From assembly GCA_020161065.1 (NCBI GenBank), contig JAIUPH010000011.1, forward strand, positions 1-64,000: a stretch of DNA of 64,000 nucleotides. The letters are read 5' to 3'. Positions 11,133 to 30,092 of the stretch are shown piece after piece. Position 1 is the first letter of the stretch; the number at the start of each line of letters is the position of its first letter. The stretch comes from Pseudomonadota bacterium (lineage in GTDB: Bacteria; Pseudomonadota; Gammaproteobacteria; Burkholderiales; Burkholderiaceae_C). The notes under the pieces are model-generated. The model was not told the origin of the DNA and did not search any database. It saw only the letters and a program-made list of their open reading frames with translations. Made by a program: the position numbers and the translations under genes.

Positions 11133-11177
11133 CGAACCCTTTTCGCACGACCCCTTGCATCCACCCAGGAGAATCCC

Positions 11178-12329
11178 ATGGACCGTCGCCTGTTCCTGCA
11201 ATCGACCGCCGCGGCTTCGGTGCTCGGCGTTGCGCACCCCGTCTTCGCCGCAGACGCCGTCAAGGTCGCGGTGATGATTCCGCAAAGCGGCCCTGCCGGC
11301 CTGTTCGGCCCATCGGCCAAGGCCTGTGCCGAACTCGCCGCGGAGACCATCAATGCGCGCGGCGGCCTGCTCGGCCAGAAGATCGAGCTGCTGTTCGGCG
11401 ACGCCGGCCTGGCGCCGGCCGAAGCGTCGCAGGCCGCGCTCAAGCTCTGGAAGGGTTCCGGCGCCGCCGCCGTGATCGGCATGCACGACAGCGCCGTGCG
11501 CGGCGCGCTGGTCGGCCTGTTCAAGGGCCAGGTGCCGTACTTCTACACGCCCGTGTACGAAGGCGGCGAATGCGCCAAGGGCACCTACGTCAACGGCGAG
11601 ACCCCGCAGCAGCAACTGCAGCCGGTGATCCCCTGGATCGCCGCGGAACGCAAGCCGAAGAAGTGGTACCTGATCGGCAACGACTACATCTGGGGCCGCA
11701 ACACCAACGCCGCGGCCAAGGGCTACATCGAGAAGACCGGTGCCCAGGTGGTGGGCGACGAATACCTGCCGTTCACGGTGGACAACTTCGACGCCAGCCT
11801 CGCGCGCATCCGCGACAGCGGCGCCGATGCGGTGCTGGTCTCGCTGGTCGGCGGCGCGTCGGTCGGCTTCAACAAGGCCTTCGCGAGCTTCGGCCTGGCC
11901 GACAAGGCGCTGCGCCTGGGCACGCTGATCGAGGAGAACACGCTCGCCGGCATCGGCCTGGCCAACGCGAAGAACCTCTATTCCAGCGCCGGCTATTTCG
12001 CCAACATCGCAACGCCGGCGGCGCAGGCCTTCGCCGCGGCCTACGGCAAGCGCTTCGGCCCGCAGGCACCGGCGCTCAATGGCCTCGCGGAGTCCACCTA
12101 CGAGGGCTTTCTGATGCTCGAAGCCGTGGCCAGGAAGGCCGGCGCCCTGAGCGTGGCGAAGATGGACGCGGCTTGCGAAGGCGCTTCCTACAGCGGGCCC
12201 CGCGGCGCCGTCACCATGAAGGCCCGCCACGTCGAGCAGGACGTCTACGTCGCCGATGTCGCCGACAAGGGCTTCCGCGTCGTCAAGACCTTCTCGCACG
12301 TCAGCTCGGGCCAGACCTGCAAGGCGTGA
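11178..12329 (+). CDS. Branched-chain/amide-type ABC substrate-binding protein
   Basis: 383-residue periplasmic-binding protein of the Peripla_BP_6 (LivJ/AmiC/UrtA) type. The N-terminus MDRRLFLQSTAAASVLGVAH is a signal peptide with an RR pair, cut near VFAADA. Then come VKVAVMIPQSGPAGLFG, ETINARGGLLGQKIELLFGDA and GEYLPF-like strands typical of the fold. It resembles the urea/short-chain-amide branch (KKWYLIGNDYIWGRNTN) more than LivJ. With the amidase upstream, an amide or aromatic amide/acid ligand is a reasonable guess. Start chosen by the AGGAG about eight bases before. Confidence 0.82.
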   Translation: MDRRLFLQSTAAASVLGVAHPVFAADAVKVAVMIPQSGPAGLFGPSAKACAELAAETINARGGLLGQKIELLFGDAGLAPAEASQAALKLWKGSGAAAVIGMHDSAVRGALVGLFKGQVPYFYTPVYEGGECAKGTYVNGETPQQQLQPVIPWIAAERKPKKWYLIGNDYIWGRNTNAAAKGYIEKTGAQVVGDEYLPFTVDNFDASLARIRDSGADAVLVSLVGGASVGFNKAFASFGLADKALRLGTLIEENTLAGIGLANAKNLYSSAGYFANIATPAAQAFAAAYGKRFGPQAPALNGLAESTYEGFLMLEAVARKAGALSVAKMDAACEGASYSGPRGAVTMKARHVEQDVYVADVADKGFRVVKTFSHVSSGQTCKA

Positions 12330-12333
12330 CGAC

Positions 12334-13188
12334 ATGGACGGCGGCACGCTGCTGCACGCGCTGAACCTCGTCTACGAGCTGTCGACGCTGGCGCTGACCA
12401 CGCTCGGCCTGGCCGTGGTGTTCGGCCTGCTGGGCGTCATGAACATGGCGCACGGCGAGTTCGTGATGATCGGCGCGTACTCGGTCGTCGCCGTGCAGCA
12501 ATGGGGCCTGCCGACGCTGGCCGCCTTCCCGCTGGCGATCGCGGTCTGCGCGGCGCTCGGCTGGGTCGTCGAGCGCTGGCTGATCCGGCCGCTGTATCGG
12601 CGCCCGTTCGACACCTTGCTCGCGACCTGGGCGCTCGCGATGCTGATGCGCAAGGTCGTCGAGGCCATCTGGGGCAAGGGCTTCCGCAATGTCGACGACG
12701 CGCTGACCGTCGCGGTGCCGATCGGCAACACCTCGTACCCGGCCTACCGCCTGGGCCTCATCGCGCTGACGATCGTGCTGCTGGCGGCGCTGGTCTTCTG
12801 GTACCGGCGCAGCAGCGCAGGGCTGCGCGTGCGCGCGATGACCGGCAACCCGATGCTCGCGCAGGCGCTCGGCATCGACACGCAGCGGCTGGCCTCGCGC
12901 ACCTTCATCGTCGGCGTGGTGCTGGCCGGCGCGGCCGGGGTGATGCTGGCGCCGCTGATCCGCATCGAGCCCGGCATCGGCGTCGACTACCTGCTGGACG
13001 CGTTCTTCGTGCTCGTCGTCGGCGGGCTCGGCACGCTCGGCGGCCTGGCCGGCGGCGTCGGCGTCATCGGCGGCTCGCAGGCCCTCGTCAGCAGCCTCTT
13101 CGGGCAGACCAGCGGCTATGCCGTCGTCCTGGTCATCTCGATCCTCTTTCTCTGGCTGAAGCCCGATGGCATCTTCGCTCGCCGCTGA
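12334..13188 (+). CDS. LivH/UrtB-type ABC permease
   Basis: 284 residues, about eight hydrophobic helices. Family marks are LGLAVVFGLLGVMNMAHGEFVMIGAY near the start and VVGGLGTLGGLAGGVGVIGG near the end. The ATG at 12334 is four bases after the binding-protein stop; an in-frame upstream extension lies inside that gene and is rejected. Its 3' end overlaps the next gene by 23 bp. It forms the transmembrane channel with the next product. Confidence 0.85.
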   Translation: MDGGTLLHALNLVYELSTLALTTLGLAVVFGLLGVMNMAHGEFVMIGAYSVVAVQQWGLPTLAAFPLAIAVCAALGWVVERWLIRPLYRRPFDTLLATWALAMLMRKVVEAIWGKGFRNVDDALTVAVPIGNTSYPAYRLGLIALTIVLLAALVFWYRRSSAGLRVRAMTGNPMLAQALGIDTQRLASRTFIVGVVLAGAAGVMLAPLIRIEPGIGVDYLLDAFFVLVVGGLGTLGGLAGGVGVIGGSQALVSSLFGQTSGYAVVLVISILFLWLKPDGIFARR

Positions 13189-14971
13189 GTCGCGGGCCGC
13201 TTCATCGCGCGATCCCCGCCCGCGCGGCCGGTCGCTGTGGCCGGCCGCGACGCTGGCGGCGGCGCTGATCGCCCTGCCGTTCGCCGGCAACGACTTCATC
13301 GCCTACCAGGTCGCGCTGTTCCTCATCTACGGCATCGCGACGCAGGGCGTCGCGCTGTGCTGGGGCCGGCTCGGGTTTCTGCCGCTGGGCCACTCGCTGT
13401 TCTTCGGCCTGGGCGCCTACATCGCCGGCGGCGCGGCCAAGGCCGGCGCCGCGCAGCCGCTGTGGTGGCTGGCCTTTCCGCTGGCGCTGCTGCTGCCGGC
13501 ACTGCTGGCCTGGGTCGTCGCGCGCCTGATCTTCGCGCGCAGCATGCGCAGCGGCCCGTACTTCTCGCTGATCACGCTGGCGATGACCATGCTCGGCTTC
13601 CTCGCGGCCCAGCAATGGAGCAGCATAACCGGCGGATTCAACGGCATGGGCAACATCCCCGAGCCGCCCGGGCTGGAGCGCTACTCCACGCTTTACTGGC
13701 TGGTGGCCGCGGCCGCCGTGGCCAGCACCGCCACGCTGGGCGTGCTGGTGGGCCGTCCGCTCGGCGTCCTGTGGCGGGCGATCGCGCAGAACGAAGAGCG
13801 CATGCAGCTCTTCGGCTACGCCACCGACCACGTCAAGGCCAACGCCTACGCCTTCTCGGCCTTGCTCGCGGCGGGCGCGGGAGCGCTCTTCGCCACGCAC
13901 CAGGGCATCGTCACGCCGCAGGCGATGAGCTTCGTGCTGGCGACCGAGTTCGTCATCTGGGCCGCCGTGGGCGGCAAGGCCAGCCCGCTGGGGGCCTTGC
14001 TGGGCGCCGTCGTCGTCGGCTATGCGTCCGCCGAGCTGCGCGACCACTTCGCGATGTGGGAGGTCTTCGTCGGCCTGCTGTTCATCGCGGTGGTGCGCTT
14101 CCTGCCGGACGGCATCGCGGGGCTCGCGGGCCTTGCCGGGTTCGGCGGCAAGCCGGCGCGTCGCAACGCGAACGTGGCGATCACGCCTTTGCCGGCGCCG
14201 CCCAGCTCGGCGCCGAAACAGGTGCCGGCACTCGTCTTCGACGACGTCCGCTCGACGCAGGGCGGCGTGCGCATCCTCGACGGCTTGAGCTTCAGGCTCG
14301 CAGGGCCCGGCATTCGCGCGGTCATCGGCCCCAACGGCGCCGGCAAGACCTCGGCCTTCAACGTGCTGACGGGGCGGCTGCCGGTCACCGGCGGGCACAT
14401 CCAGGTGGGCGGTCGCGACGTGACCGGTTGGACCGCCTGGCGCGTTGCCCGCCTGGGCGTCGGCCGCAAGATGCAGGTGCCGTCGGTGTTTGCCGACCTG
14501 AGCGTCCGCGAGAACCTGTCGGTCGCCCTCTGGGCCGGGCGGCTGCACGGCAGGGCCGCGCTGCGCCGGGCGCCACAAGCCTGGTGCACGCCGCTGCTCG
14601 AAGAGATGCTCGGCTGCTTCCCGGAGCTGGCCGCTTCGCTCGATGTGCCGGCCAGCCGGCTCTCGCAAGGCCACCGGCAGGCGCTGGAGTTCGTGATGAC
14701 GGTCTTGCCCGAGCCGCACCTGCTGCTGCTGGACGAGCCCTGCGCCGGGCTCTCGCCGGCCGAGACGCAGCGGATGATCCAGGTGATCGTGCGCGCCGTG
14801 CGGCGCCTTGGCGCCGGCGCCTTGTTGATCGAACATGACCTGGCGGCGGTGGCGGCGCTCGACGGCGAGGTCTATGTGCTCCATCAGGGCCGGATGCTCG
14901 CGCAGGGATCGCTGCAAGACCTGCAAGCGGATCCGGCCGTGCGGGCCGTCTACGCCGGCGCCCGCAAATGA
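13166..14971 (+). CDS. LivM-LivG fusion: ABC permease joined to ATPase
   Basis: 601 residues. Residues 1-320 are a LivM/UrtC permease (MSFVLATEFVIWAAVGGKASPLGALLGA near 255). A Pro/Ala-rich linker (about 322-352) leads to a complete ABC ATPase. The ATPase has Walker A in GPNGAGKTSAFN, Walker B in HLLLLDEPCAGLSP and an H-loop in LLIEHDLAAV. The signature motif is LSQGHRQ rather than LSGGQ, like UrtD-type ATPases. The fusion replaces two genes normally separate (livM, livG). It overlaps the preceding gene by 23 bp and the LivF gene by four (ATGA). No frame break is visible in the linker. Confidence 0.85.
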   Translation: MASSLAAESRAASSRDPRPRGRSLWPAATLAAALIALPFAGNDFIAYQVALFLIYGIATQGVALCWGRLGFLPLGHSLFFGLGAYIAGGAAKAGAAQPLWWLAFPLALLLPALLAWVVARLIFARSMRSGPYFSLITLAMTMLGFLAAQQWSSITGGFNGMGNIPEPPGLERYSTLYWLVAAAAVASTATLGVLVGRPLGVLWRAIAQNEERMQLFGYATDHVKANAYAFSALLAAGAGALFATHQGIVTPQAMSFVLATEFVIWAAVGGKASPLGALLGAVVVGYASAELRDHFAMWEVFVGLLFIAVVRFLPDGIAGLAGLAGFGGKPARRNANVAITPLPAPPSSAPKQVPALVFDDVRSTQGGVRILDGLSFRLAGPGIRAVIGPNGAGKTSAFNVLTGRLPVTGGHIQVGGRDVTGWTAWRVARLGVGRKMQVPSVFADLSVRENLSVALWAGRLHGRAALRRAPQAWCTPLLEEMLGCFPELAASLDVPASRLSQGHRQALEFVMTVLPEPHLLLLDEPCAGLSPAETQRMIQVIVRAVRRLGAGALLIEHDLAAVAALDGEVYVLHQGRMLAQGSLQDLQADPAVRAVYAGARK

Positions 14972-15663
14972 CTGCGATCGCGCTGACGTTTGAAGACCTG
15001 GTGTGCGGCTACGGCGACACGATGGTCGTGAGAGGCGTGTCGGGCCGCGTGCAGGCCGGCAGCGTGCTCGGCATCGTCGGCCGCAACGGGGTCGGCAAGT
15101 CGACGCTGCTGAAATGCCTGGCCGGCTTTCTGCCGGTGTCCGGCGGCCAGGTGCGGTGGCGTGACCGCGACCTGAGCGGCGTTCCGGCACACGCCCGGCT
15201 GGCCCGCGGCATCGCCTACGCGCCGCAGGAGAACGTGGTGTTCGGCGAGCTCACGGTCGAAGAAAACCTGTGGCTGCACCTGCCGGACCGCAACGCGGCG
15301 CGCTACCACCCGCTGCTGCAGGCCTTTCCGCGAATCGGCGAGCGGCTGAAGCAGCGCGCCGGGCTGCTGAGCGGCGGCGAGCGCAAGCTGCTGTCCTTCA
15401 CGCGGACGATGGGCCTGCAAGCCACGCTGGCGATGCTGGACGAGCCGACCGAGGGCGTGCAGCCCGAGAACATCGACCGCATGGCCCAGGTGGTCGGCCG
15501 CCTGAAAGCAGCGGGGCACGGCTTCGTCGTCGTCGAGCAGAACCTGAGCTTCATCGAGCAGGTCGCCGACCATGTGCTGGTGCTCGATCACGGCGAGCGC
15601 GTGCTGGCCGGCACGCTGGCGGACCTCGGGCGCGCGGCGATCGAGAAGCACCTGATGGTCTAG
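14968..15663 (+). CDS. LivF/UrtE-type ABC ATPase
   Basis: 231-residue ATPase, normal LivF length. Walker [17 protein letters not shown] (about 34-49), signature [12 protein letters not shown], Walker [16 protein letters not shown] (with EGVQP as in UrtE), H-loop VVVEQNLSF. It is the partner of the fused ATPase domain, completing an asymmetric ATPase pair. The start overlaps the previous stop (ATGA). Its TAG stop lies in a CTAG whose complement is also the stop of the convergent amnD gene. Confidence 0.85.
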
Positions 15664-16073
15664 GGCTTGTAGGCCACCGCCTTGATCTCGATGCGCAGCT
15701 GCGGGTGCGGCAGCTGGTGAACGGCAACGGTCGTGCGCGCCGGCCCGTCGAAGCCGAAGAACTCGCCGTACACCGCGTTGTAGCCGCCGAAGTCGGCCAT
15801 GTCGACGAGGAAGGTCGTGACTTCGACGACGTCCTCGAGGCCGGCGCCGACGCTCTCGAGAATGTCGCGGATGTTCTCGATCACCGCGCGCGTCTGCTCG
15901 CGGATGTCGAGGCTCAGCGTGCCCATCGCATCGGCGCTCGCGCCGGCGATGCTGTTGTCCGGCCGGCGCGAGCTGGTGCCGGAGACGAACAGAAAATCGC
16001 CGGCCCGCTTCACGTGCGGGAAGCGGCCGCGCGGCGTGGCCTTGCCGGGCACGACGGTGGCATCTTTGCTCAT
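15660..16073 (-). CDS. amnD: 2-aminomuconate deaminase (RidA family)
   Basis: 137-residue RidA/YjgF-family protein. The pattern [21 protein letters not shown], then [32 protein letters not shown] and [13 protein letters not shown], matches the 2-aminomuconate deaminase branch (AmnD/NbaF) rather than housekeeping RidA. It removes the amino group of 2-aminomuconate to give 4-oxalocrotonate. It is last in the amn operon, overlapping the decarboxylase gene by four bases. The context amnB-A...C-F-E-D fixes the function better than sequence alone, since RidA proteins are hard to separate. Confidence 0.8.
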
Positions 16074-16855
16074 GCTGCAGGCTCCGCCGCGCTGACCCGA
16101 AAGCCGATCCGCCCCAGCCGCTGGAATTCGGCGCTGACCGCCGCGCCGGCTCGCAGTTCGACCGCGGCGGTCGCGCCGCCGGCCATCACGATGCTGCCGG
16201 GCTCCAGCCGCTCACCCGCCGCGGCCACCAGGCGCGCCGCCGCCACCAAAGAGCGCAGCGGATGACCGAGGATCGCCGCGGTGCTGCCGACCTGCGCCGC
16301 GCGGCCGTCGATCGCCAGCACGATGCCGAGGTTGGCGACGTCGACATCGGGCTTGTGCCACGCACCGAGCACCACGCCGGCGGACGACGCGTTGTCGGCG
16401 ATCACGTCGGCCAGCGAGAAGCGGAAGTCGCGGTAGCGCGAGTCGATCACCTCCAGCGCGGGCGCCACCGCCTCGACGGCGTCGAGCGCCTGCAGCGGCG
16501 TCACCACGCCTTCCAGCGGCTTGCTCAGCAGGTAGCAGACCTCGGGCTCCACGCGCGGGTGGATGTAGGCGTCGAACGGCAGCGGACCGCCTTCCTCGCA
16601 GACCATGTCGCTGGTCAGCCGGCCCCAGATCAGCTCCGACAGGCCCATCTGCTGCATCTTCGCGCGGCTGGTGAAGCCCATCTTCATGCCGATGCGTCGC
16701 GCCCCGCGCGCCAGGCGCTGCGCCACCAGCGCCGCCTGCACCGGGTAAGCCTCGGCCAGGGTCGGCGCGTCGGCACCCTCGGGCTGCGCGATGGCGTGCC
16801 GTTGCCGCGCCGCCTCGTCCAGCCGCCGTGCCAGCGATTCGATGCGTTCGCTCAT
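16070..16855 (-). CDS. amnE: 4-oxalocrotonate decarboxylase
   Basis: 261 residues, the length of DmpH/AmnE. Family marks: [66 protein letters not shown] and [13 protein letters not shown]. It decarboxylates 4-oxalocrotonate to 2-hydroxypenta-2,4-dienoate, and the family forms a complex with the hydratase encoded just upstream. The start at 16855 overlaps the hydratase stop by four bases; the frame's upstream extension is only a shadow of that gene. Confidence 0.87.
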
Positions 16856-17649
16856 CGTGCCTCCTGTACCGCGCCGAACGCGGCGCGCACGCTGCCCAGG
16901 CCTTCGATGCGGGCCTCGATCACGTCGCCGGGGCGGGCGACGACCATCGGGCCGAGCGCGCCGGTGAGCACGGTGTCGCCGGCTTTCAGCGGCTGGCCGA
17001 CGCGCACCATCGTGCGCGCCAGCCACAGCGCCGCATTCAGCGGGTGGCCGAGGCACGCGGCGCCGACGCCCACCGACACCGGCTCGCCTTGCAGTTCCAT
17101 CACCATGCCGGCCAGCCGCAGGTCGAGCCCGGCCAGCGCCACCGGCGTGTTGCCCAGCACGTACAGGCCCGACGAGGCGTTGTCCGCCACCGTGTCGACG
17201 ATGCGGATGTTCCAGTTCGCGATGCGGCTGCCGACGATCTCGATGGCCGGCAGCGCGAACGCGGTGGCGCGGATCACGTCGGCGATGGTCAGCCCCTCGC
17301 GGTCGAGATCGTGCTCGAGCACGAGCGCCACCTCGGCCTCGCACTTCGGCTGGTGCAGGCGCGACCAGGGCACGTCCTCGCCGTCGGCATAGGCCATGTC
17401 CGCGAACAGCATGCCGAAGTCGGGCTGGTCGACGCCGAGCTGCTTCTGCACGGCCAGCGAGGTCAGGCCGATCTTGCGACCGGCGATGCGCCGGCCCTCG
17501 GCGACCCAGCGGCGGGTGTTGGCGTCCTGCACCGCATAGGCCGCGGCAACGTCGTTCGCGGGCAGACGTTCGCGCACCGGGTCGATCGCGCCGCCGTGCA
17601 CATGCACGTGGAACAGGTCGTCGGCGACGCGCCGGATGTCGTCGTTCAT
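16852..17649 (-). CDS. amnF: 2-hydroxypenta-2,4-dienoate hydratase
   Basis: 265-residue hydratase (DmpE/MhpD/AmnF family). Seen are [65 protein letters not shown] and [11 protein letters not shown], the same fold as the decarboxylase next to it. It adds water to the dienoate to give 4-hydroxy-2-oxovalerate. The start at 17649 overlaps the dehydrogenase stop by four bases. The aldolase and acetaldehyde dehydrogenase that finish the pathway are not found in the window. Confidence 0.87.
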
Positions 17650-19121
17650 GCCAGGGCCTCCTGCGCTTCGATGCGGACGCACACGTTGGTCAGTTCGGAA
17701 TAGAAGTTGAGCGAATGGGCGCCGCCTTCGCGGCCGATGCCGGAGATGCCCGCACCACCGAACGGCGTGCGCAGGTCGCGCAGGAACCACGAGTTGACCC
17801 ACGCGAGGCCGACGCGCATTGCCGGCGCCACGCGGTGCGCCCGGTCGACGCTGCCCGTCCACACCGTCGCGGCCAGGCCGTAGTCGGAATCGTTGGCGCG
17901 CGCCACCGCCTCGGCCTCGGTGTCGAAGGGGCTGACGTGGCACACCGGGCCGAAGATCTCCTCGCGCATGCAGCGCGCGCCGTCGGGCAGGCCGGCCAGG
18001 ATCGTCGGCTCGATCCAGAAGCCGCCGTCACGGGCGTCACCGAAGGCCGGCACGCCGCCACCGGTGACGAGCGTCGCGCCTTCCTGCTGCGCGAGCCGGT
18101 AGTAGGCCAGCACCTTGCGGCGGTGCTCGGCGGAGATCAGCGGCCCCATCGACGTGCCCAGCTCACGCGGCCAGCCCAGCACCAGCTCACGCGCCTTGCG
18201 CGCCAGCGCGTCGACGAAGCGTTCGTAGATCGGCCGCTCGACCAGCACGCGCTCGGAGCAGAGGCAGACCTGGCCGGTGTTGAGGAAGCTGGCGCGCACG
18301 AGGCCGTCGACGGCCTTGTCGAAGTCGCAATCGGCGAAGACGATGCCGGCGTTCTTGCCGCCCAGCTCGAACGAGATCGGCTTCACGCCCTCCGCCGCGG
18401 CCCGCATGATCGCGCTGCCGGTGCGCGATTCGCCGGTGAAGGTGATCGCCGCGATGCCCGGGTGCGTGGTGATGAACTCGCCCGCCGAGTCGGGGCCGAA
18501 ACCGTGGACGAGGTTGAACACGCCCGGCGGCAGGCCCACCGCGTGCATCACCTCGGCAAGCAGCGTGGCGGTGCCGGGCGTCTCCTCCGATGGCTTGGCA
18601 ACGACCGCGTTGCCGCAGGCCAGCGCCGGCGCCACCTTCCAGGTCAGCAGCAGCAGCGGCAGGTTCCAAGGCGAGATCACGCCGACCACGCCGAGCGGCT
18701 TGCGCACGGTGTAGTTCAGCGCGTGCGCACCGCCGGGCAGGTCGAGCTGGAAGCTTTCGAGCGGCGCCGTCTTCAGGATGTCGGCGAAGACGCGGAAGTT
18801 CGCCGCGCCGCGCGGGATGTCGAGCGTCGACGCCAGCGCGCGCGGCTTGCCGGTGTCGGCGATCTCGGCATCGAGAAAGTCGTCGAAGCGGCGCTCGATC
18901 TCGTCGGCGATGCGGTACAGCATCGCGGCCCGCTCGGCCACCGGCGCGCGGCCCCAGGCGCCGCGCACGGCGGCGCGCCCGGACTCGACGGCGGCGTCGA
19001 CCATCGCGCGGTCGGCCTCGTGCACCTCGGCGATCGTGCGGCCGTCGGCCGGATCGATGTCGGGAAAGCGGCGAGCGCTCTCGACCCATTCCCCGGCGAT
19101 GTAGTTTCGGTACTGTCTCAT
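17646..19121 (-). CDS. amnC: 2-aminomuconic/2-hydroxymuconic semialdehyde dehydrogenase
   Basis: 491-residue NAD-dependent aldehyde dehydrogenase, close to DmpC/AmnC. Catalytic residues: N153 (PWNLP), E252 in [10 protein letters not shown]286 in [12 protein letters not shown], a loop typical of hydroxymuconic-semialdehyde dehydrogenases. It oxidises the ring-opened semialdehyde to 2-aminomuconate. Start at 19121 ([12 protein letters not shown]) has GGAAAGG ahead; the longer frame to 19298 enters the previous gene. It is 43 bp after the LivM-AmnA fusion gene, so it belongs to the same transcript, and overlaps amnF by four bases. Confidence 0.87.
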
Positions 19122-19164: not shown

Positions 19165-21204
19165 TCACGACAGGCGCACGACGGCCGCACCGCAGCCGAA
19201 TTGCGGGCCGTAGGCATACACCTCGCACGCGCCCAGGCGGCCGCCCAGCGCGCCGAGCGCAAAAGCGAAATGCTTGAATCCCATGTCGACCTTGGCATGG
19301 GCCAGGTAGTCGGGCAGCTGGCGCTGCAGTTCGTCGAGCTCGCGCGCGCCGATCAGCTTGAGGATGCGGCGGTTCCACTCGTCGTCGGTCGCCGTCGCGA
19401 CGGCGTCGTCGGCGAGCGCCCGCGTGTCGCGGAACTGGCTGCCCGAGAGCTCGCCGACCGCCAGGATCACCACCCGCTTGCCCTGCGCGGTGGCCTGCGC
19501 GGCAACGATCTCGCCGAGCGCCTGCGTGCGCGCGGCATCGTGGTAGAGGTTGTTGGCGACGATCAGCGACGGGAAGCTGCCTTCGGCGTTGGCCAGCGCC
19601 TGCGCCGTCAACGTGCCCGAGTCGAGCGGGAAGCCGGCGTAGTCGACCAGCTTGGAAGCGATGCCCGCATGCTGCGCGGCGCGCACGCAGGCGCGTGCGA
19701 GCGAGACATCGGTCGTGATGTCGTAGCGCATCTCGCCCAGCTCGTGCCAGTTGTCGTCGACGTGCAGGCCGGTCACGCGGGCGCGGCCCTGCCACAGCTG
19801 GTCGAGCACCGCGTACCAGCGCGTCGAGTAGATCACCAGCGTGTCGGGCTGCAGGTCCTGCAGGTCGCGCGCGACGCGCGCGTAGCCCCGGCGCAGCTCT
19901 TCGTACGCCGGCTCCTGGCGGGCCAGCGTGAGCAACGGGCTGCCGCTGACCAGGTAGGCGCCGACGACGCCGGGCTGGTCCGCCAGGCCGCCGCCGGCGC
20001 TGCGACCGTCGTCGCCGACCAGCACGGTGGCCATGCGCCGCCAGATCGACGGGCCGCTGCGGCGGCGCGCCGGCTGCCGCAGGTCATGCACGATTCCCAT
20101 GACGCCGCGCGGCAGCAGCAGCATCAGCAGGATCGACAGCACGCCCATCACCAGCATGCCTTGGCCGGCCGCCGCCGCGAGCACGCGGTCGACCAGGATG
20201 TAGAGCACGCCGCCGATCACCGGCCCGGCCACCGTTCCCATGCCGCCCGCCACGACGATGAAGACGAACGCCGACGCCCAGCCGAGCGAGAAGGCCGAGG
20301 GCGGCGTGATGATCACCACGTCCATGTAGTACAGCCCGGCGGCCAGGCCCGTGACCGTGGCGCTGAACAGGAACACCGCGGCCTTGACCTGGTTGACGTC
20401 GACCCCGCTGGAGCGGGCCGCGTCCTCGTCGTCGCGCACCGCCGTCAGCGCGAGGCCATAGCTCGAGCGCATCCAGCGCCAGATCACCGCCGTGGTGACC
20501 ACCAGCAGCGCCAGCGCGACGTAGTACATCTGCAGCGGCGTCACCGCCGACTTCAGCTGCATGCCGCCGCCGGCGCCGACGACGCGCCACTCGTTGAACA
20601 CGCTGGCCACCGCCTCGGCCACGAGCCAGGTCGCGACCGCGAAGTACGGGCCTTTCAGCCGCAGCAGCGGCAGCGCGCCGAGGAAGATCAGCAGCAGCAG
20701 CGCAACGCGCCGCACGTAGGCGCTGCCGAAGACGTCGGCCGCCGGCACGCGGGCGATCAGCCATTCGTAGAGCAGCCACAAGACGACCGCGACGACGACG
20801 CCGATCTTGACGCGCCGCCGGCTGCCGCCCTCGCGCAGCGGCAGGCACAGCAGCCAGGCGAACAGCAGCGAGGCGATGCCGGCCACCGGCCACGACGTCC
20901 AGATGGACGCCGGCGAGTAGTAGAAGACGATGGCCTGCGCGAAGCCGCCGATGCCGACGAACACTTGCTGGCCGAAGGTCAGCAGGCCCGCGTAGCCGGC
21001 CATCAGGTTCCAGGCGTGGCCAAGCGTGGCGAACACGAACACCGAGAACAGCAGGTGCAGCAGGTAGCTCTGCGGGCCGGTCATCGCCGGGACCAGCAGC
21101 GCAATCGCCAGCACCGCGGCCGCCCACGCCGCGCCGCGGCTGCCGTAGAAGGAGTCGGCCAGCAAGCGGCCGGCCGAATCGGGTTCGCGGCCGTGCGCGC
21201 TCAT
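19165..21204 (-). CDS. LivM permease fused to AmnA-like dioxygenase-subunit domain
   Basis: 679 residues in one unbroken frame. Residues 1-375 are a LivM-type permease (HLLFSVFVFATLGHAWNLMA, KGPYFAVATWLVAEA, FIVVAGGMGTVAGPVIGG, then RGVMGIVHDLR). Residues 376-410 form a polar linker (PARRRSGPSIWRRM ... GGGLADQP). Residues 411-679 are a class III extradiol dioxygenase (LigB-like) alpha-subunit domain that aligns throughout with the AmnA encoded 4.5 kb away: VVGAYLVSGSPL, VIYSTRWYAVLDQLW, GLHVDDNW, NNLYHDAA, LSGSQFR, DDEWNRRIL, MGFKHF and YGPQFGCGAAVV. An internal ATG at residue 391 (20034) could also start a free domain but lacks a strong ribosome site. Start overlaps the LivH stop (ATGA). Confidence 0.82.
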   Translation of the reverse strand: MSAHGREPDSAGRLLADSFYGSRGAAWAAAVLAIALLVPAMTGPQSYLLHLLFSVFVFATLGHAWNLMAGYAGLLTFGQQVFVGIGGFAQAIVFYYSPASIWTSWPVAGIASLLFAWLLCLPLREGGSRRRVKIGVVVAVVLWLLYEWLIARVPAADVFGSAYVRRVALLLLIFLGALPLLRLKGPYFAVATWLVAEAVASVFNEWRVVGAGGGMQLKSAVTPLQMYYVALALLVVTTAVIWRWMRSSYGLALTAVRDDEDAARSSGVDVNQVKAAVFLFSATVTGLAAGLYYMDVVIITPPSAFSLGWASAFVFIVVAGGMGTVAGPVIGGVLYILVDRVLAAAAGQGMLVMGVLSILLMLLLPRGVMGIVHDLRQPARRRSGPSIWRRMATVLVGDDGRSAGGGLADQPGVVGAYLVSGSPLLTLARQEPAYEELRRGYARVARDLQDLQPDTLVIYSTRWYAVLDQLWQGRARVTGLHVDDNWHELGEMRYDITTDVSLARACVRAAQHAGIASKLVDYAGFPLDSGTLTAQALANAEGSFPSLIVANNLYHDAARTQALGEIVAAQATAQGKRVVILAVGELSGSQFRDTRALADDAVATATDDEWNRRILKLIGARELDELQRQLPDYLAHAKVDMGFKHFAFALGALGGRLGACEVYAYGPQFGCGAAVVRLS

Positions 21205-22124
21205 CGGGCGAACAGCCCCTGCGGCCGCACCGCCAGCACGAACAGGATCAGCAGGTAGCCGGCGACCTGTTGCGCCGCCGGGCCGGCGTAGGTGCCGGCC
21301 AGCACCTGCACGACGCCGAGCAGCACGCCGCCGACGAAGCTGCCCCACAGCGAGCCCAGCCCGCCCAGCACGACGACGCCGAAGGCGGTCAGCAGGAACG
21401 GCGGGCCGTCGAAGGGCTGGAACGAGCGCGTCATGCCGACCATGAAGCCGGCGATCGACGCGCTGGCCAGCGCCACGCCGCTGGCCACGCCGTAGACGTG
21501 CGAGGTGCGCATGCCCATCAGCGCGGCGACCTCGGCATCGTCGCTGGCGGCGCGGATCGCGCGGCCGATGTGGGTGCTGCGCATCCACAGCGCGAGCGCC
21601 GCGAGCAGCACCGCGGCGGCGCAGAAGAAGCCGAAGCGCAACGTCGACAGGCTGAGGTCGGCGCTCAGGCGGATCGCGGAATAGGACAGCTCGTTGCGGA
21701 TGGTGGCGGCGTCGGAGCTGAACACCAGCAGCATGCCCTGGCTCAGCACGATCGACAGGCCGAAGGTGACGAGCAGCGGCAGCATCAGCCCGTACAGCGG
21801 CGACATGCCGCGCCGCTCGGCCGCCTGCACCGACACGTGGTTCAGCAGCACGCGCTGCACGAGATAGCCGACGCCGAACATCAGCGGCACCACGACGGCG
21901 AGCGCCCAGAACGGCGCGACGCCGGGGATCATCGTCAGCAGCGCCACGCAGAGGTAGGCGGCGACGATCAGCCAGTCGCCGTGCGAGAGGTTGACGAGCC
22001 GCATCACGCCGAAGTTGAGCGCGAGCCCGACGCTGATCAACGCGTACGAGCCGCCCAGCACGGCGCCGGACAGCACGCCGTTGGCGATCTCGACGCCGAG
22101 CCAGTAGAGATCGTCGTTGCTCAT
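21201..22124 (-). CDS. LivH-type ABC permease
   Basis: 307 residues, about eight membrane helices. Marks: GGSYALISVGLALNFGVMRLVNLSHGDWLI and FGVVVLGGLGSLWGSFVGGVLLG. It pairs with the LivM part of the fusion protein to form the channel. It overlaps the fusion gene by four bases (ATGA) and lies 13 bp after LivF. Substrate is presumably the aromatic compound degraded by the amn enzymes (inference from operon). Confidence 0.85.
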   Translation of the reverse strand: MSNDDLYWLGVEIANGVLSGAVLGGSYALISVGLALNFGVMRLVNLSHGDWLIVAAYLCVALLTMIPGVAPFWALAVVVPLMFGVGYLVQRVLLNHVSVQAAERRGMSPLYGLMLPLLVTFGLSIVLSQGMLLVFSSDAATIRNELSYSAIRLSADLSLSTLRFGFFCAAAVLLAALALWMRSTHIGRAIRAASDDAEVAALMGMRTSHVYGVASGVALASASIAGFMVGMTRSFQPFDGPPFLLTAFGVVVLGGLGSLWGSFVGGVLLGVVQVLAGTYAGPAAQQVAGYLLILFVLAVRPQGLFAR

Positions 22125-22137
22125 CGCTCGCTCGCCT

Positions 22138-22876
22138 TCATGCCTGCCGCGCCTCGCCGGCGCCGAAGTACGCGGCGGTGATCGCCTCCATCGGCACCTC
22201 GCCGGGCCGGCCTTCGAGAACGATGCTGCCTTCCAGCATCACGCAAAAGCGCGTGCTCGACGCCAGCGCGCGCTTGAGGTCCTGCTCGACGATCACGCAG
22301 CTGACGCCGCGCTCGATGATCTGCGCCAGCTTGCGGTAGATCTCGTCGACCATCACCGGCGCGAGGCCGAGCGACAGCTCGTCGAACAGGATCAGCTTGG
22401 GCCCGCTCATCAGCGCGCGGCCGATCGCGACCATCTGCTGCTCGCCGCCGCTCATCTCGCTGACGGTCTGGCGGCGCCGCTCGCGCAGCCGCGGGAACAG
22501 CTCGAACACCTCGGCCAGGCGCTGCGCCGCCTGCGGACGGCAACGCGCCAGGTAGGCGCCGGCAAGCAGGTTGTCTTCCACGCTCATGCGGTCGAACAAG
22601 CGCCGGCCCTCGGGCACCAGCGCGATGCCGGCATCGACGATCTCCTCCGGACCGAGCTTGTCGATGCGCCGGCCCTCGAACTCCACCAGGCCGCGAAGGT
22701 GCGAGCGCGCGCCGTGGTTCATCAGGCCGACGATCGACTTCAGCAGCGTGGACTTGCCGGCGCCGTTGGCGCCGATCACCGCCAGCACGTCGCCGCGCGC
22801 CAGTTCGAGCGAGCAGTCGTAGATCGCCCGCAGCTCGCCGTAGTAGGCCGACAGGCTGGCCACCCGCAGGACGGTC

Positions 22877-22896
<20 letters not shown>
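22138..22896 (-). CDS. LivF-type ABC ATPase
   Basis: 252 residues. Walker A GANGAGKSTLLKSIVGL (about 38-54), signature EMSGGEQQMVAIGRALM, Walker B LILFDELSLGLAP (DEL in place of DEP, common in LivF), H-loop CVIVEQDLKRAL. It begins with GTG and overlaps the LivG gene by 20 bp. One of two ATPases powering the transporter in the amn operon. Confidence 0.85.
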
Positions 22897-23593
<697 letters not shown>

Positions 23594-23597
23594 CGCC

Positions 23598-24461
23598 TCA
23601 GCGCCTCGCCGCCAGCGCGATCCATTGCGCGAGCGGGCTCTTCGGATCCTCGAAGCCGTAGATCGCGTCGAAGTGGTTGCGCCCCTCCTGCGGCAGCCGC
23701 CGCGCGCGGTTGCCCGCGGCCTGCCAGGCGGCGAGGAAGTCGTCGGACTGGCGGCGGAATTCGTCGGGCTCGTTGCCGCCCCAGCTCACCAGCGCCGGCG
23801 TCGCGCACGACCGCACGTGGAACAGCGGCGAGTTGCGCTGGATCACGCCGTCGTCCAGCTGCAGCATGGGCTGCATGTTCGACCAGCGCAGCGGGCGCAG
23901 GTCGAACAGCCCGCTGACCATCACCGCGCCGGCCAGCGGATCGGGCGGCAGGCCGTAGTCAGCGTCCCAGTCGGTCTGCAGGCACATGGCGGTCAGGTGG
24001 CCGCCCGCCGAATGGCCGCCGAGCACCACGCGCGACGGGTCGCCGCCGTGGCGGTCGATGCGCCGCAGCACCCAGGCGACGGCGGCGCGCATCTGGCGCG
24101 TGATCTCGTCGATCGTCACCTTCGGGCACAGCGCGTAGTTGACGACGACGGTGGTGATGCCCAGTTCGTGCAGGCCGAGCGCGACGCACGAGAACTCCTT
24201 GCTCGACAGCATCCGCCAATAGCCGCCGTGGATGAACACGAACACCGGCGCGCCGGGCATCGCGGCGGAGAAGATGTCGAGCGTTTCGTCGCGGGTGGGG
24301 CCGTAGGGCACGTCGAGCGTGCAGCGCAGGCGGTGGCGGGCCAGCCGGCTTTCGTCGATGTAGTGGCGGGCGTAGACGGTGAAGTCCGGCACCGACTGCT
24401 CGACGTCGTACTGCGCGTCGATCTCGGCTTGGGTCGCGAACTGTCGGTACAGGGGGCGCAT
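23598..24461 (-). CDS. Alpha/beta hydrolase, arylformamidase-like
   Basis: 287 residues. The oxyanion motif HGGYW (78-82) and nucleophile elbow GGHSAGGHL (S151) are those of kynurenine-formamidase-like (KynB/BNA7-type) esterases. The catalytic His is probably in EGRNHFDAI near the C-terminus. No signal peptide, so cytoplasmic. Placed between the binding protein and the ATPases of the amn operon, it probably releases the aminophenol from an N-formyl or other N-acyl/O-acyl precursor after import. It is absent from the classical amn operons. The reaction is inferred. Confidence 0.75.
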   Translation of the reverse strand: MRPLYRQFATQAEIDAQYDVEQSVPDFTVYARHYIDESRLARHRLRCTLDVPYGPTRDETLDIFSAAMPGAPVFVFIHGGYWRMLSSKEFSCVALGLHELGITTVVVNYALCPKVTIDEITRQMRAAVAWVLRRIDRHGGDPSRVVLGGHSAGGHLTAMCLQTDWDADYGLPPDPLAGAVMVSGLFDLRPLRWSNMQPMLQLDDGVIQRNSPLFHVRSCATPALVSWGGNEPDEFRRQSDDFLAAWQAAGNRARRLPQEGRNHFDAIYGFEDPKSPLAQWIALAARR

Positions 24462-24510: not shown

Positions 24511-25746
24511 TCAGTGGTAGGTCTTCATGTCGCCGGTCTTCTTCACCGACGGGTAGACCGCGTTGTAGACGTTCTCCTTCACCAGCTTCTTGCGCTTGTC
24601 GTCGTAGCGCCACTGCGCGCCGCCGAGCGGCTGCACCGAGTAGTGCTGCTCGTTGAACTTCACCGTGCCGGCAACCGTGTCGAGGTTGGTCTCGGCCAGC
24701 GCCTTCAGCACGGCGGCGCGGTCGGTGGTGCCGGCACGCTGCAGCGCGTCGAACAGCACGTCGTAGGCCGCGTCGTCGTAGCCGAGCGGCGGGATGTACT
24801 GCTTGCCGGTCGCCTTTTCGTAGGTCTCGACCAACCCTTCACCGGTGTAGCCGCCGAACTTGCTCTTGCCCGGATAGGCCGGCGACCAGAAGTTCACCGA
24901 CAGGATGTTCTCGCCGGCCTTGCCGATGGCGTTCATCGGCTCCGGGTAGCCGGTGGCCTTGTCGATGATGTACATCTTCGGCTTGTAGCCTTGCTGTGCG
25001 GCCTGCTGCAGGTAGTTCTGCAGGTCCGGCGGGGCCAGCACCCCGGTGACGACCTCGACCCGGTTGCGCTTGAACTGGTTGATGATCGAGCTGAAGTCCG
25101 GCAGGCCCTGCTGGAAGCGGCCCGGATCGGTCGGCTTCCAGCCTTCCTTCTTGAAGGCCGGGTCGAACAGCGACGCGAACACCGTGCCGTCCGGATCGTT
25201 CGGATAGAGGTAGCCGATGTTGCCGTTGAAGCCGCCCGGCAGCGCCTTGATCATGCCGACGTGGTTGGTCACCAGGTCGGGCACGCCGAAGAAGAAGTGG
25301 AACGTGTGCTTGAAGGTCTTCGGCTTGCCGTCGGGGCCGAACAGCCAGGCCTCGACCGGCGTGTTGACGGTGATGCACGGCACCTGGTTGCGCTCGCACA
25401 GATCCGACGGCGCGTTGGTGGTGTCGGGCGTGCCCTGCGCCATCAGGAAGTCGACCTTGTCCTGCAGGATCGCGCGCGTCGCGGCGTCGGCGGAGCCGGC
25501 AACGGTGCTCTTGCTGTCGTAGATCTTGTACTCGACCTTGCACTGCTGGTTGCCGACCTTCAGGCCGCCGGCCTTGTTGATCGGGCCGACCTTGTGGTCG
25601 TCGACCCAGGGCGTGTCTTTGCCGACGTCGGCCAGCGGGCCGGTGACCGGCACGACGCGCCCGATCTTGATCGTGCACGACTGTGCCCAGGCGCTGCCCG
25701 AGAGGACGGCGAGCGCGACGCAAGTGAACACGTTGGTCATCTTCAT
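24511..25746 (-). CDS. ABC substrate-binding protein of the amn operon
   Basis: 411-residue Peripla_BP_6 protein. Signal peptide MKMTNVFTCVALAVLSGSAWA, cut before QSCTIKIG. The mature part contains VDDHKVGPINKAGGLKVG, FLMAQGTPDTTNAPSD and FHFFFGVPDLVTNHVGMIKAL, like binding proteins for aromatic acids and related compounds. It is longer than LivJ (about 370). It lies 29 bp after amnA and 49 bp before the hydrolase. A second ATG two codons on (25740) is possible. Ligand unknown; an aminophenol derivative is inferred from the operon. Confidence 0.83.
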   Translation of the reverse strand: MKMTNVFTCVALAVLSGSAWAQSCTIKIGRVVPVTGPLADVGKDTPWVDDHKVGPINKAGGLKVGNQQCKVEYKIYDSKSTVAGSADAATRAILQDKVDFLMAQGTPDTTNAPSDLCERNQVPCITVNTPVEAWLFGPDGKPKTFKHTFHFFFGVPDLVTNHVGMIKALPGGFNGNIGYLYPNDPDGTVFASLFDPAFKKEGWKPTDPGRFQQGLPDFSSIINQFKRNRVEVVTGVLAPPDLQNYLQQAAQQGYKPKMYIIDKATGYPEPMNAIGKAGENILSVNFWSPAYPGKSKFGGYTGEGLVETYEKATGKQYIPPLGYDDAAYDVLFDALQRAGTTDRAAVLKALAETNLDTVAGTVKFNEQHYSVQPLGGAQWRYDDKRKKLVKENVYNAVYPSVKKTGDMKTYH

Positions 25747-25775: not shown

Positions 25776-26591
25776 CTACAACGTGAACTCGACGACGGCC
25801 GCACCGCTGCCGTACGCCGGTCCGTATCCGTGAACGCGCGCTCCGGGGAAACGCCCCTTCAGCGCGCCGAGGATCCAATAGAAGTGCTTGAAGCCCATGT
25901 CCGCCCGCGCCTCGCGCGCGAAGTCGGGCACCAGCGCGCGCAGCTGCGCGACATCGCCCGACTCGACCAGTTGCAGGATGCGCTGGTTCCACTTGTCGTC
26001 GTCGGGGCTGGCGATGCGGTCGGTGCGCACGTCGATCTCGGTGCGGAACTGCGAGCCCGAGAGGCCGCCCACGCCGACCACCGCGACCCGCTTGCCCTGC
26101 TCGTCGGCGCAGGCCACCGCCATCGCGGCGAGCTTCTCGGTGGTGGCGGCATCGTGGTAGAGGTTGTTGGAGGCAACGACCAGCGGCCGCTCCGGCGTGC
26201 CCACCTCGAGCGCCTGGCTCGCGACGATCGTGCCGGTGTCGATCGGGAAGGCCTCGTAGTTGACGCCGCGCGCCTGGACGCCGATGCGCGGCGAAGCGGC
26301 CACGCAGGCGTGCGCGAGTTCGGTGTCGGCGTGCAGGTCGTACGGCAGGTCGCCGTGCTCGTACCAGTTCTCGTCGACGTGCACGCCGCGGCTGCGCCGG
26401 TGCGTGAGCCATTGCTGGTCGAGCACCGCGAACCACTGCGTCGAGTAGACGAGCACCGCATCGGGCCGCGACGCCGCGAGCGCGCGGCCGGCGCGCTGGC
26501 AGGCCGCCGCCAGCCGGCCCCAGGGCAGCACCTCGGGCTTCAGCCGCGGCAGCGGCGAGCCCGGAACGAGGAAGGCGCTGACGACCGGCAT
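25776..26591 (-). CDS. amnA: 2-aminophenol 1,6-dioxygenase alpha subunit
   Basis: 271 residues, full length for AmnA. It follows the known alpha subunits from the start (MPVVSAFLVPGSPLPRLKPE) through VLVYSTQWFAVLDQQWL, GVHVDENWYEHGDLPYDLHA, SNNLYHDAATTEKL and GYGPAYGSGAAVVEF. The alpha subunit shares the LigB fold of the beta subunit but is non-catalytic; it is structural or regulatory in the heterotetramer. Only ten bases separate it from amnB. A close relative of this whole protein is fused to the permease at 19165-20000. Confidence 0.87.
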   Translation of the reverse strand: MPVVSAFLVPGSPLPRLKPEVLPWGRLAAACQRAGRALAASRPDAVLVYSTQWFAVLDQQWLTHRRSRGVHVDENWYEHGDLPYDLHADTELAHACVAASPRIGVQARGVNYEAFPIDTGTIVASQALEVGTPERPLVVASNNLYHDAATTEKLAAMAVACADEQGKRVAVVGVGGLSGSQFRTEIDVRTDRIASPDDDKWNQRILQLVESGDVAQLRALVPDFAREARADMGFKHFYWILGALKGRFPGARVHGYGPAYGSGAAVVEFTL

Positions 26592-26601
26592 GCGGCGGCC
26601 G

Positions 26602-27852
<1,251 letters not shown>

Positions 27853-28413
27853 ATGGCCGCGCCTGAGACGGCGCGCCGCGGCCGGCGCCACGCCGCGGCG
27901 GCGCCGCAGGATGCCCGCGAACTGGTCACGGCCCCGGTGCGCGAGTTGCTCGATCGTTTCCGCCTGGAAGACGTGGGGTCGCATCTGCTGCGCCGCGCGC
28001 ACTTCCTGGCCGAGGAGCTGTTTTCGCAGGAGTTCGCCGCCCAGTCGATCACGCCGCGGCAGAAGGCCGCGCTCGTCACGCTCTACCAGCAGCCCGGACT
28101 CAGCCAGAACTCGCTGGCCGACCGCTTGTTCATGGACCGCAACACGGTGGCCGAGATGGTTCGCCGGCTCGCTGCCAACGGCCTGGTGCGACGCGTTCCC
28201 GCCAGCGACGATCAGCGCGCGTACGAGCTGTTTCTCGCGCCGGCCGGCGCCGACATGCTCAACCGCGTGATGCCGCGCGATGCCCGCGTCGAACACCAGG
28301 TGCTCGAGCGCTTGCCGGAAGAGTACCGGCCGCTGTTCGTCAAGTGCCTGCGCCTGATCGTCGAGCGGCCCGCGGCCGCCCCCGCCGAAACCCGACCATC
28401 GCCCAGCGAGTAG
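27853..28413 (+). CDS. MarR-family transcriptional regulator
   Basis: 186 residues. The winged helix is visible at about 75-130: RQKAALVTLYQQPGLSQNSL, then RNTVAEMVRRLAANGLVRRV and PASDDQRAYELFLAPAGADML. An Ala/Arg-rich 30-residue N-terminus precedes it. It is divergent from the amn operon, the usual place for a MarR repressor released by the aromatic substrate. It is followed after five bases by the flotillin gene, so the two are probably cotranscribed. Confidence 0.85.
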   Translation: MAAPETARRGRRHAAAAPQDARELVTAPVRELLDRFRLEDVGSHLLRRAHFLAEELFSQEFAAQSITPRQKAALVTLYQQPGLSQNSLADRLFMDRNTVAEMVRRLAANGLVRRVPASDDQRAYELFLAPAGADMLNRVMPRDARVEHQVLERLPEEYRPLFVKCLRLIVERPAAAPAETRPSPSE

Positions 28414-28418
28414 CGCCC

Positions 28419-30092
28419 ATGGAGATCAACTTCGGTTCCGTGCTGTTGACGATCATCGTCGTCGTCGTCGCGATCGGCATCGCCTGGTGGCTGCTCTCCA
28501 AGCTCTACCAGCGCTCGACGAGCGAGACCTCGTTCGTGCGCACCGGCTTTCTCGGGTTGCGCGTGTGCATCTCCGGCGGCGCGCTGGTCATCCCGGTGCT
28601 GCACGAGGTGACCCGCGTCAACATGAACACGATGCGCATCGGCGTCTCGCACCGCGACCACGATGCCTTGATCACGCAGGACCGGCTGCGCGTCAACGTC
28701 GATGCAGACTTCTACGTCCGCGTGGCGCCGACGACCGAGGCGGTGAACGCCGCCGCGCGCACGCTGGGCGGCCGCACGATGTCGATCGACGCGATGCGGC
28801 AGCTGCTGTCGGCGCGCTTCGACGATGCGCTGCGCACCGCCGCCGCGGAATCGACCATGGAGGCGCTGCACGAGCACCGCAGCGCGTTCGCGCAACGCGT
28901 GCGCGCGCTGGCATCGCAAGGCATCGACACCAGCGGCCTGGAGATCGACAGCGTCTCGATCAGCTCGCTGGACCAGGCGTCGCGCGAGTTCTTCAATCCG
29001 AACAACGCCTTCGACGCCGCCGGCCTGACGAAGCTGACCGAGGAAATCGAGCAGCGGCGCAAGCGCCGCAACGAGGTCGAACGCGAAGCGCAGGTGCAGA
29101 TCCAGCGGCAGAACCTCGCGGCCGAGCGGCAGATGCTCGAGCTGCAAAAGGAGGAGGAATATGCCCGCCTGATGCAGGAGCGCGACATCGCGATCCGCCG
29201 TGCGCAGGAGCAGGCGCAGATCAGCATCGAGAGCGCCGAGATGCAGCGCTCGTCGCAGGTGGCGGAAGTCACGTCCACCGAAGCGGTCGAGCGGGCCAAG
29301 CTCGTGTCCGAGCGCACCGTGCGCGAGGAGAAGCTGCGCGTCGAGCAACAAGTGCGCGAGATCGAGATTTCCAAGGCACTGACGGTGGAGGTGGCCGAGA
29401 CCAAGCGCCGCCGCGCGCTGGAGCTCGAGCAGCAGCGCAACGAGATCGAGATCGCCGAGCACTCGCGCTTGCGCAACGAGGCCCTGGTCGACGCCGAGCG
29501 CTCGCGCGCCGAGGCGGTCAAGGCCGAGGAATCGGTGGTCACGCTGCGTGAGCTGGAGCGGGCGCAGCGCGACAAGGCGCTGGTGCTGGTGGCCGCCCAG
29601 CGCGATGTCGAGGTCAAAGGCCTGGCCATCGTGCAGGCCGCCGAGGCGGAGCGCGAAGCCGCTGCGCGCCGTGCCGAAGCCATGCGAACCACCGCCCTGG
29701 CCGAGAGCGACGCCGAACGGATGCGCCAGGCAACGGCCGACCAGGGGCACGAGATCGAGGCCCGCGCCCGCCGCGCGCTGAACGAGGCGGAGAACGCGAT
29801 GTCGGCCGAGACCCTGCAGTTGCGCATCCGCCTCGCGACGCTGGAGCGCATCGAGGCCGTCGTCCGCGAAAGCGCGCGTCCGCTCGAGAAGATCAGCGAG
29901 ATCAAGATCGTGCACGTCGACGGCCTTTCGGCGCCGTCGCCCACCGGTGGCGGCGGCGAGCCGGCCGCGAGCGTGTCGGACCAGGTCATGTCCAGTGCGC
30001 TGAAGTACAAGCTGCAGGCGCCGCTGGTCGAGGCGCTGCTTGAATCGGCCGGCATCAATGCGGGCGACGCGCGGCGCGATCTCCTGCCCTGA
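28419..30092 (+). CDS. Flotillin-like membrane scaffold protein
   Basis: 557 residues of the flotillin/YqiK family. One N-terminal membrane anchor (about 6-27, VLLTIIVVVVAIGIAWWLL), an SPFH/PHB domain (about 30-200, TGFLGLRVCISGGALVIPVLHEV), then a long Glu/Ala/Arg-rich coiled coil (about 210-490). It organises membrane microdomains. The start at 28419 is five bases after the MarR stop; the frame upstream is part of that gene. No NfeD partner is seen. The 3' end overlaps the convergent cyclase gene by 38 bp. Its placement directly after the amn regulator might be chance. Confidence 0.85.
   Translation: MEINFGSVLLTIIVVVVAIGIAWWLLSKLYQRSTSETSFVRTGFLGLRVCISGGALVIPVLHEVTRVNMNTMRIGVSHRDHDALITQDRLRVNVDADFYVRVAPTTEAVNAAARTLGGRTMSIDAMRQLLSARFDDALRTAAAESTMEALHEHRSAFAQRVRALASQGIDTSGLEIDSVSISSLDQASREFFNPNNAFDAAGLTKLTEEIEQRRKRRNEVEREAQVQIQRQNLAAERQMLELQKEEEYARLMQERDIAIRRAQEQAQISIESAEMQRSSQVAEVTSTEAVERAKLVSERTVREEKLRVEQQVREIEISKALTVEVAETKRRRALELEQQRNEIEIAEHSRLRNEALVDAERSRAEAVKAEESVVTLRELERAQRDKALVLVAAQRDVEVKGLAIVQAAEAEREAAARRAEAMRTTALAESDAERMRQATADQGHEIEARARRALNEAENAMSAETLQLRIRLATLERIEAVVRESARPLEKISEIKIVHVDGLSAPSPTGGGGEPAASVSDQVMSSALKYKLQAPLVEALLESAGINAGDARRDLLP

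Follow-up and report, generated by a model that had tools for sequence, protein, structure and literature searches.

Why should a subunit of a ring-cleaving dioxygenase form the C-terminal end of an ABC permease? The question is raised by one gene on the minus strand at positions 19165-21204 of the window, the whole analysed stretch of 64,000 nucleotides. Its translation gives 679 residues and zero stops. The original prediction of a single frame, joining a permease to an AmnA-like domain through an unbroken linker, is borne out by the translation and by Pfam, which agree, and the strand is minus. The Pfam matches are BPD_transp_2 at residues 48-361 (E 1e-26) and LigB at residues 416-656 (E 2.5e-16). 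The alignment of this domain with the free AmnA, described beforehand as end to end, is nearly so (45% identity over query residues 412-677). The best matches of the C-terminal half within its own genome are the free AmnA (45%) and AmnB (28%); both are encoded in the same operon, as had been said. The order on the minus strand is amnB, amnA, binding protein, α/β-hydrolase, livG, livF, livH, livM-amnA', semialdehyde dehydrogenase, two FAA-hydrolase-family enzymes and RidA. These genes are given below, followed by the two plus-strand genes beyond amnB.

26602-27540, minus strand: AmnB, the catalytic β subunit of 2-aminophenol 1,6-dioxygenase (84% identity to CnbCb of pCNB; 3vsg_B, E 3e-179)
25776-26591, minus strand: free AmnA, the α subunit (Pfam, sequence match and tree)
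24511-25746, minus strand: periplasmic substrate-binding protein of the importer (Peripla_BP_6; start codon placed by eye)
23598-24461, minus strand: α/β-hydrolase (HGGYW and GHSAGG motifs; ortholog fused on in loci L013 and L015)
22877-23593, minus strand: LivG-type ATPase
22138-22896, minus strand: LivF-type ATPase
21201-22124, minus strand: LivH-type permease, its stop overlapping the start of the fusion gene
19165-21204, minus strand: fusion gene, with a LivM-type permease (about residues 1-370), a linker (about 371-410) and an AmnA-type LigB-fold domain (411-679), from Pfam and structure matches
17646-19121, minus strand: 2-hydroxymuconic/2-aminomuconic semialdehyde dehydrogenase, AmnC type (TIGR03216, 863 bits against a cut-off of 693)
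16852-17649, minus strand: FAA-hydrolase-family hydratase/decarboxylase (Pfam and cluster comparison)
16070-16855, minus strand: second FAA-hydrolase-family enzyme (named by similarity to other amn-cluster members, not by a Pfam scan of its own)
15660-16073, minus strand: RidA-family protein (relatives annotated RidA), which we take to be probably the 2-aminomuconate deaminase
27853-28413, plus strand: MarR-family regulator, divergent from the amn operon (profile/Pfam)
28419-30092, plus strand: flotillin (N-terminal hydrophobic stretch, Band_7 and Flot), its ATG 5 bases past the MarR stop

The nearest solved relative of the hydrolase is lipase 1 (9n8r, E 6e-33), followed by two other esterases; the kynurenine formamidase 4e11 (E 2e-16) is farther than these. 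Searches with the binding protein gave weak, general matches, mostly to Leu/Ile/Val-binding proteins. Between amnB and marR, repeated GTATACGT-type boxes and a tandem ATACGTACAGCC were seen at 27758-27792 and 27591-27607, which are possible operator sites.

The permease part shares its operon with LivH, LivG, LivF and the binding protein, which identifies it as a LivM-type ABC permease. The start ATG of the fusion gene at 21204 overlaps the stop of livH. The curated scores of this permease are below the cut-offs for LivM of branched-chain amino acid importers (97.7 against 366) and for UrtC of urea importers (84.4 against 296.2). The permease is modelled weakly in the prediction of the whole protein (mean pLDDT 70.4), and linker residues 376-406 have pLDDT below 50. 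The linker varies little in length among ten fused proteins, with 40 residues in four, 41 in two, 42 in three and 44 in one, as measured from the PRGxMG anchor at the LivM end to the PGVV anchor at the domain start; the protein of L090 is outside this set.

The fusion was looked for in other genomes, as had been proposed, and it is present in 11 including that of the window. The open frame of permease and AmnA domain is shared by L009-L015, the Ensifer plasmid locus L029, L052 (genome G788) and L090 (genome G1607). Besides the window, the hosts belong to the Comamonadaceae, other Burkholderiales, the Rhodospirillales, Ensifer and another member of the Hyphomicrobiales. A sequencing error at the junction had been named as one way in which the fusion might prove false; however, its recurrence in ten further genomes, with the identical fused frame in isolate genomes, MAGs and one complete plasmid, leaves an assembly or sequencing artefact virtually no chance. 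Another such way was an internal start, from which the AmnA-type domain would also or only be made separately. The linker of the window protein does have an ATG at residue 391 (position 20034). No Shine-Dalgarno-like motif lies in the 15 bases upstream of it, no matching ATG occurs in the linkers of the other nine fused proteins, and the linker-region starts flagged with such a motif are only GTG or TTG codons (in L009, L010 and L012). Separate production of the domain is thus very improbable. The permease-AmnA fusion is real and conserved. No description of it was found among the listed titles and abstract openings of open-licence PMC texts.

The fusion is also rare. In a scan with a single genome for each species, 14 loci were found: seven are fused (L009-L015), L016 has the same transporter cassette with an unfused LivM, and the six loci L017-L022 have amnB-amnA only. 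When the domain was used as the query, matches were found in 3 of 399 genomes of the family, 5 of 369 of the class and 4 of 398 of the phylum, and each time only the window's own was fused; in the order, 4 of 399 genomes matched and all four were fused; L011 and L012 come from two of these. A search of 22 genomes from the order to which the L013 genome belongs gave two matches, both already among the known cases, and no further example. Three stretches of viral contigs fit the search pattern, and none encodes a relative. The fused domain is absent from the five other listed genomes of the same genus, so the fusion has probably moved horizontally. The Ensifer adhaerens plasmid (L029) is predicted to be conjugative.

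AmnB and a free AmnA accompany the fusion in 10 of the 11 genomes. Only the MAG behind L010 departs from this, with no AmnB match; its assembly may be incomplete. About 14 kb separate amnBA from the fusion on the Ensifer plasmid. The Shinella genome with an unfused cassette gave neither an AmnB nor an AmnA-type match. On the Novosphingobium humi plasmid there are two amnB-amnA pairs about 6.5 kb apart (L091:2745-4516 and L091:11057-12801). Plasmids of Ensifer and Pseudomonas veronii carry AmnA and AmnB under the annotation 'tRNA U-34 5-methylaminomethyl-2-thiouridine biosynthesis protein' (L044, L092, L029), and the Ensifer fusion is entered as 'hypothetical protein'; with such annotations these genes may escape name searches.

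Two loci go one step further. In L013:7914-11027 (1038 residues) and L015:7914-11024 (1037 residues), both from Rhodospirillales MAGs, permease, AmnA domain and α/β-hydrolase are joined in one frame, and the third part is the ortholog of the hydrolase of the operon. Past the final conserved motif of the AmnA portion, the second linker has zero ATG, GTG or TTG codons in both loci, so a separate hydrolase could hardly be made there; no separate hydrolase copy was found in the L013 and L015 loci examined. The model of the L013 protein is weaker than that of the window protein (mean pLDDT 64.0); at most it hints at separate folded blocks, with low confidence over residues 705-782.

What kind of dioxygenase subunit is the fused domain (hereafter α')? 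It is closer to the solved α subunit 3vsg_A (E 4e-71) than to the β subunit 3vsg_B (E 9e-21). Its predicted fold superposes on 3vsg_A with a TM of 0.94 and an rmsd of 1.6 over 267 columns, and the TM values of the model are 0.92-0.94 to α chains against 0.81-0.83 to β chains. Residues H14, H63 and E252 of AmnB, which we take to be the iron (metal) ligands, align with G421, R462 and D640 of the fusion protein. The AmnA-type, non-catalytic nature that had been assigned to the domain agrees with this loss of the metal ligands of the β subunit. Thirty α-type columns were defined, with a conservation of 95% or more across 30 free AmnA rows and a different majority letter across 25 AmnB rows, duplicate AmnB rows being taken out. 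The window's α' keeps 26 of these 30 residues and the window's AmnB keeps 0; in nine other fused domains the counts are 30, 30, 29, 29, 29, 27, 27, 25 and 25. In the remaining 214 columns, the window domain has the majority letter of free AmnA in 41%. By its sequence, α' is α-type and non-catalytic, not β-type. The α-type residues that it retains may matter only for folding and not for contact with AmnB.

Pairwise dN/dS ratios point to purifying selection. The values for the fused domain are 0.33 (window/L009), 0.32 (window/L014) and 0.09 (L009/L014), and those for the free AmnA of the matching pairs are 0.33, 0.28 and 0.09 (the AmnA of the L014 genome being taken from L058), which indicates equal constraint on the two; the linker gave 0.79, 1.12 and 0.21 for the same pairs. 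In pairs that include L010, silent sites are saturated or nearly so. A neutral fusion, with the domain as a passenger of a horizontally moving operon, would suit the patchy distribution, including the five other listed genomes of the genus that lack the domain, the predicted conjugative plasmid of Ensifer and the degenerate copy in L090. It is nonetheless quite unlikely, considering that the constraint equals that of free AmnA, the linker varies little in length, and the fusion is retained in Alpha- and Betaproteobacteria.

The copy at L090:8071-11202 has lost most α-type residues (13 of 30 kept), and the fusion, AmnB, free AmnA and flotillin are still there. The fused domain of G1607 is therefore degenerate or differently employed, which argues against a strict requirement. 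Such divergence would be expected once an old partner was dropped, and it is one of the points that would suit a regulatory or sensing domain, whose vestigial pocket binds aminophenol or its product and throttles import, with no recruitment of AmnB. Others are that AmnB is already served by the free AmnA, that the window clade is on a long branch (0.86), and that α' of this clade differs from free AmnA at sites such as Q52 (R in α') and G176 (E in α'). We consider a sensing domain unlikely. The window protein keeps 26 of 30 α-type residues and five fused proteins keep 29-30, loss of the metal ligands is a trait that free AmnA already shows, and AmnB occurs in all but one of the fusion genomes.

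Phylogenetic trees bear on the age of the fusion. A tree of 35 domains, 10 fused and 25 free, has all the fused ones on one side of a branch (92/92), so α' would be an old paralogue rather than a recently made copy of the adjoining amnA. With L090 and five more free rows added, the fused rows split in the best tree into betaproteobacterial and alphaproteobacterial ones (two changes); the tree with all fused domains together was not rejected and had a slightly better score (p-AU 0.574). Given this value against the two-change best tree, two separate fusion events may have taken place. The unfused cassettes of Shinella and Rhizobium cluster with the window clade in two trees, of which the four-gene tree is unrooted, and a single clade of fused LivM was not rejected (p-AU 0.219); these cassettes either lost the domain or never gained it.

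A flotillin gene adjoins the fusion locus, which is context beyond the original prediction. The protein of the window has Band_7/SPFH and Flot above the curated cut-off and is thus a flotillin. Such a gene lies about 3 kb or less from amnB or the transporter cassette in 8 of 8 examinable cases (window, L009/L074, L011/L073, L013/L070, L014/L058, L015/L071, L029 and L090); the contigs of L010, L012/L054 and L052/L053 end too early and were left out. The L014 genome has the fusion on one contig and the flotillin on another, both contigs ending at the hydrolase gene. On the Ensifer plasmid the flotillin is by the transporter cassette, away from amnBA, and in the L090 locus, which was picked up by a LivM query, it is also beside the fusion. 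Within the stretches examined, flotillin was found in 0 of 19 AmnAB loci without the fusion (L017-L022, L056, L057, L060-L066, L069 and L091-L093) and in neither of the two unfused cassettes (L067, L068). Absence here means no blastp match above 60 bits to the window flotillin, and some control flanks are short (0.4 kb past amnA in L017, 2.2 kb ahead of amnB in L022). The figure of 4.5e-7 for this count ignores kinship, and the positives represent about four lineages. The background frequency is low, with a flotillin match (E 1e-40) in 8 of 120 genomes of the order, two of which are the window's genome and that of L011. Seven of the locus flotillins are on one side of a branch from eight others (82/82), which include the second flotillin of the window's genome; the L090 protein is outside this tree. 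The synteny of fusion, amn genes and flotillin can result from joint transfer.

The fusion in several lineages, with the flotillin alongside, suggests a physical coupling of uptake to ring-opening at the membrane. The context is stronger than the original prediction stated, and it is from this context that we infer a function. We hold it to be the probable arrangement, if with modest confidence, that the α'-bearing LivM docks AmnB at an importer for (acylated) aminophenol and that flotillin gathers the assembly. The C-terminal end of the fusion protein would be on the cytoplasmic side. There α' might replace free AmnA on AmnB, so that the dioxygenase is docked at the importer exit. PMC10470539 describes 2-aminophenol 1,6-dioxygenase as two α/β heterodimers joined through β. 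One β dimer could therefore hold one α' and one free α. Docking is consistent with the occurrence of AmnB in 10 of 11 fusion genomes, the kept α-type residues and the purifying selection. Free AmnA is present in every one of the ten AmnB-bearing genomes, so α' is not needed for basic activity. A decoy or inhibitor, which holds AmnB at idle transporters and lets go on import, would likewise retain α-type residues and lack catalytic ones; it is highly unlikely, as two genomes have the hydrolase attached as well, which speaks for a functional chain and not for an inhibitor.

The docking arrangement also bears on the earlier proposal that imported aminophenol is handed to the dioxygenase: the docking part fits the sequence evidence, whereas the cargo was probably too simple, given the hydrolase of the cassette. 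2-Aminophenol itself may cross membranes unaided. Because the cassette includes a lipase/formamidase-like hydrolase, which two genomes even have within the same protein, the importer more probably takes up an acylated precursor, possibly N- or O-acylated 2-aminophenol. According to PMC11213898, a Streptomyces enzyme is able to N-acetylate 2-aminophenol derivatives and a Fusarium N-malonyltransferase is needed for the detoxification of 2-benzoxazolinone, which makes acylated aminophenols plausible in nature. The hydrolase of the operon would free 2-aminophenol from the cargo, the docked AmnB would open its ring, and the AmnC-type dehydrogenase would clear the unstable semialdehyde before its conversion to picolinic acid. 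In strain LB400, according to PMC3790839, part of the 2-aminophenol becomes picolinic acid, which is proposed to form spontaneously from the ring-cleavage product and which inhibits growth. Flotillin may gather or enclose the assembly, so that less of the unstable product of ring cleavage escapes; this step is a guess.

SPFH proteins are described, in PMC11260169 and the preprint PMC12407830, as building membrane cages or domes, with stomatin domes around aquaporin-1 and a urea transporter; those proteins are human. It is conceivable but doubtful that a flotillin cage over the importer, with its docking α' and in some species the hydrolase, holds uptake, deacylation and ring cleavage in one closed membrane space. 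The ARO microcompartment of Actinobacteria, according to PMC10470539, is proposed to carry the same steps inside a compartment that holds unstable or toxic intermediates. Both systems would keep a ring-cleaving enzyme of this type, together with an aldehyde dehydrogenase, at a special site. The compartment has BMC shell proteins; the window has a transporter tether and flotillin, and the BMC domain is absent from the 29 window ORFs scanned, a subset of those in the window. As a tentative extension of the cage, proteobacteria might meet the same leak problem with a permease tether and a flotillin dome where Actinobacteria use a BMC shell.

Several known systems resemble parts of the locus. The AmnA/AmnB enzymes of Comamonas CNB-1 (3VSG) and Pseudomonas AP-3 (8IHG) are similar, as judged from the match of AmnB to CnbCb and the α fold of the fused domain, which is without the β metal ligands. 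However, the known α is a free subunit, whereas a second α here is the C-terminus of an ABC permease. Like LivFGHMK-type importers, the locus has a full set of binding protein, two permeases and two ATPases; its LivM differs in bearing a subunit of a ring-cleavage enzyme, and in two genomes a hydrolase too. The SulP-carbonic anhydrase is a natural transporter-enzyme fusion that also joins transport and metabolism in one chain, but its families are others, and the part fused here is non-catalytic, a putative docking part. The locus offers a case for testing, in which an importer and an enzyme-docking subunit, sometimes with a hydrolase, are joined in one chain and tied to a flotillin gene. To our knowledge, the clients of bacterial flotillins are poorly known; the importer complex is a specific candidate client, for which growth on aminophenols and escaping picolinic acid would give a simple read-out. 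If true, this would be a natural design coupling uptake to catabolism.

A second Liv-type importer with an amidase is encoded on the plus strand at 9726-15663 of the window, converging on the end of the amn operon. It contains another fusion, of a permease domain to an ATPase domain (13166-14971), and this importer may feed the same pathway.
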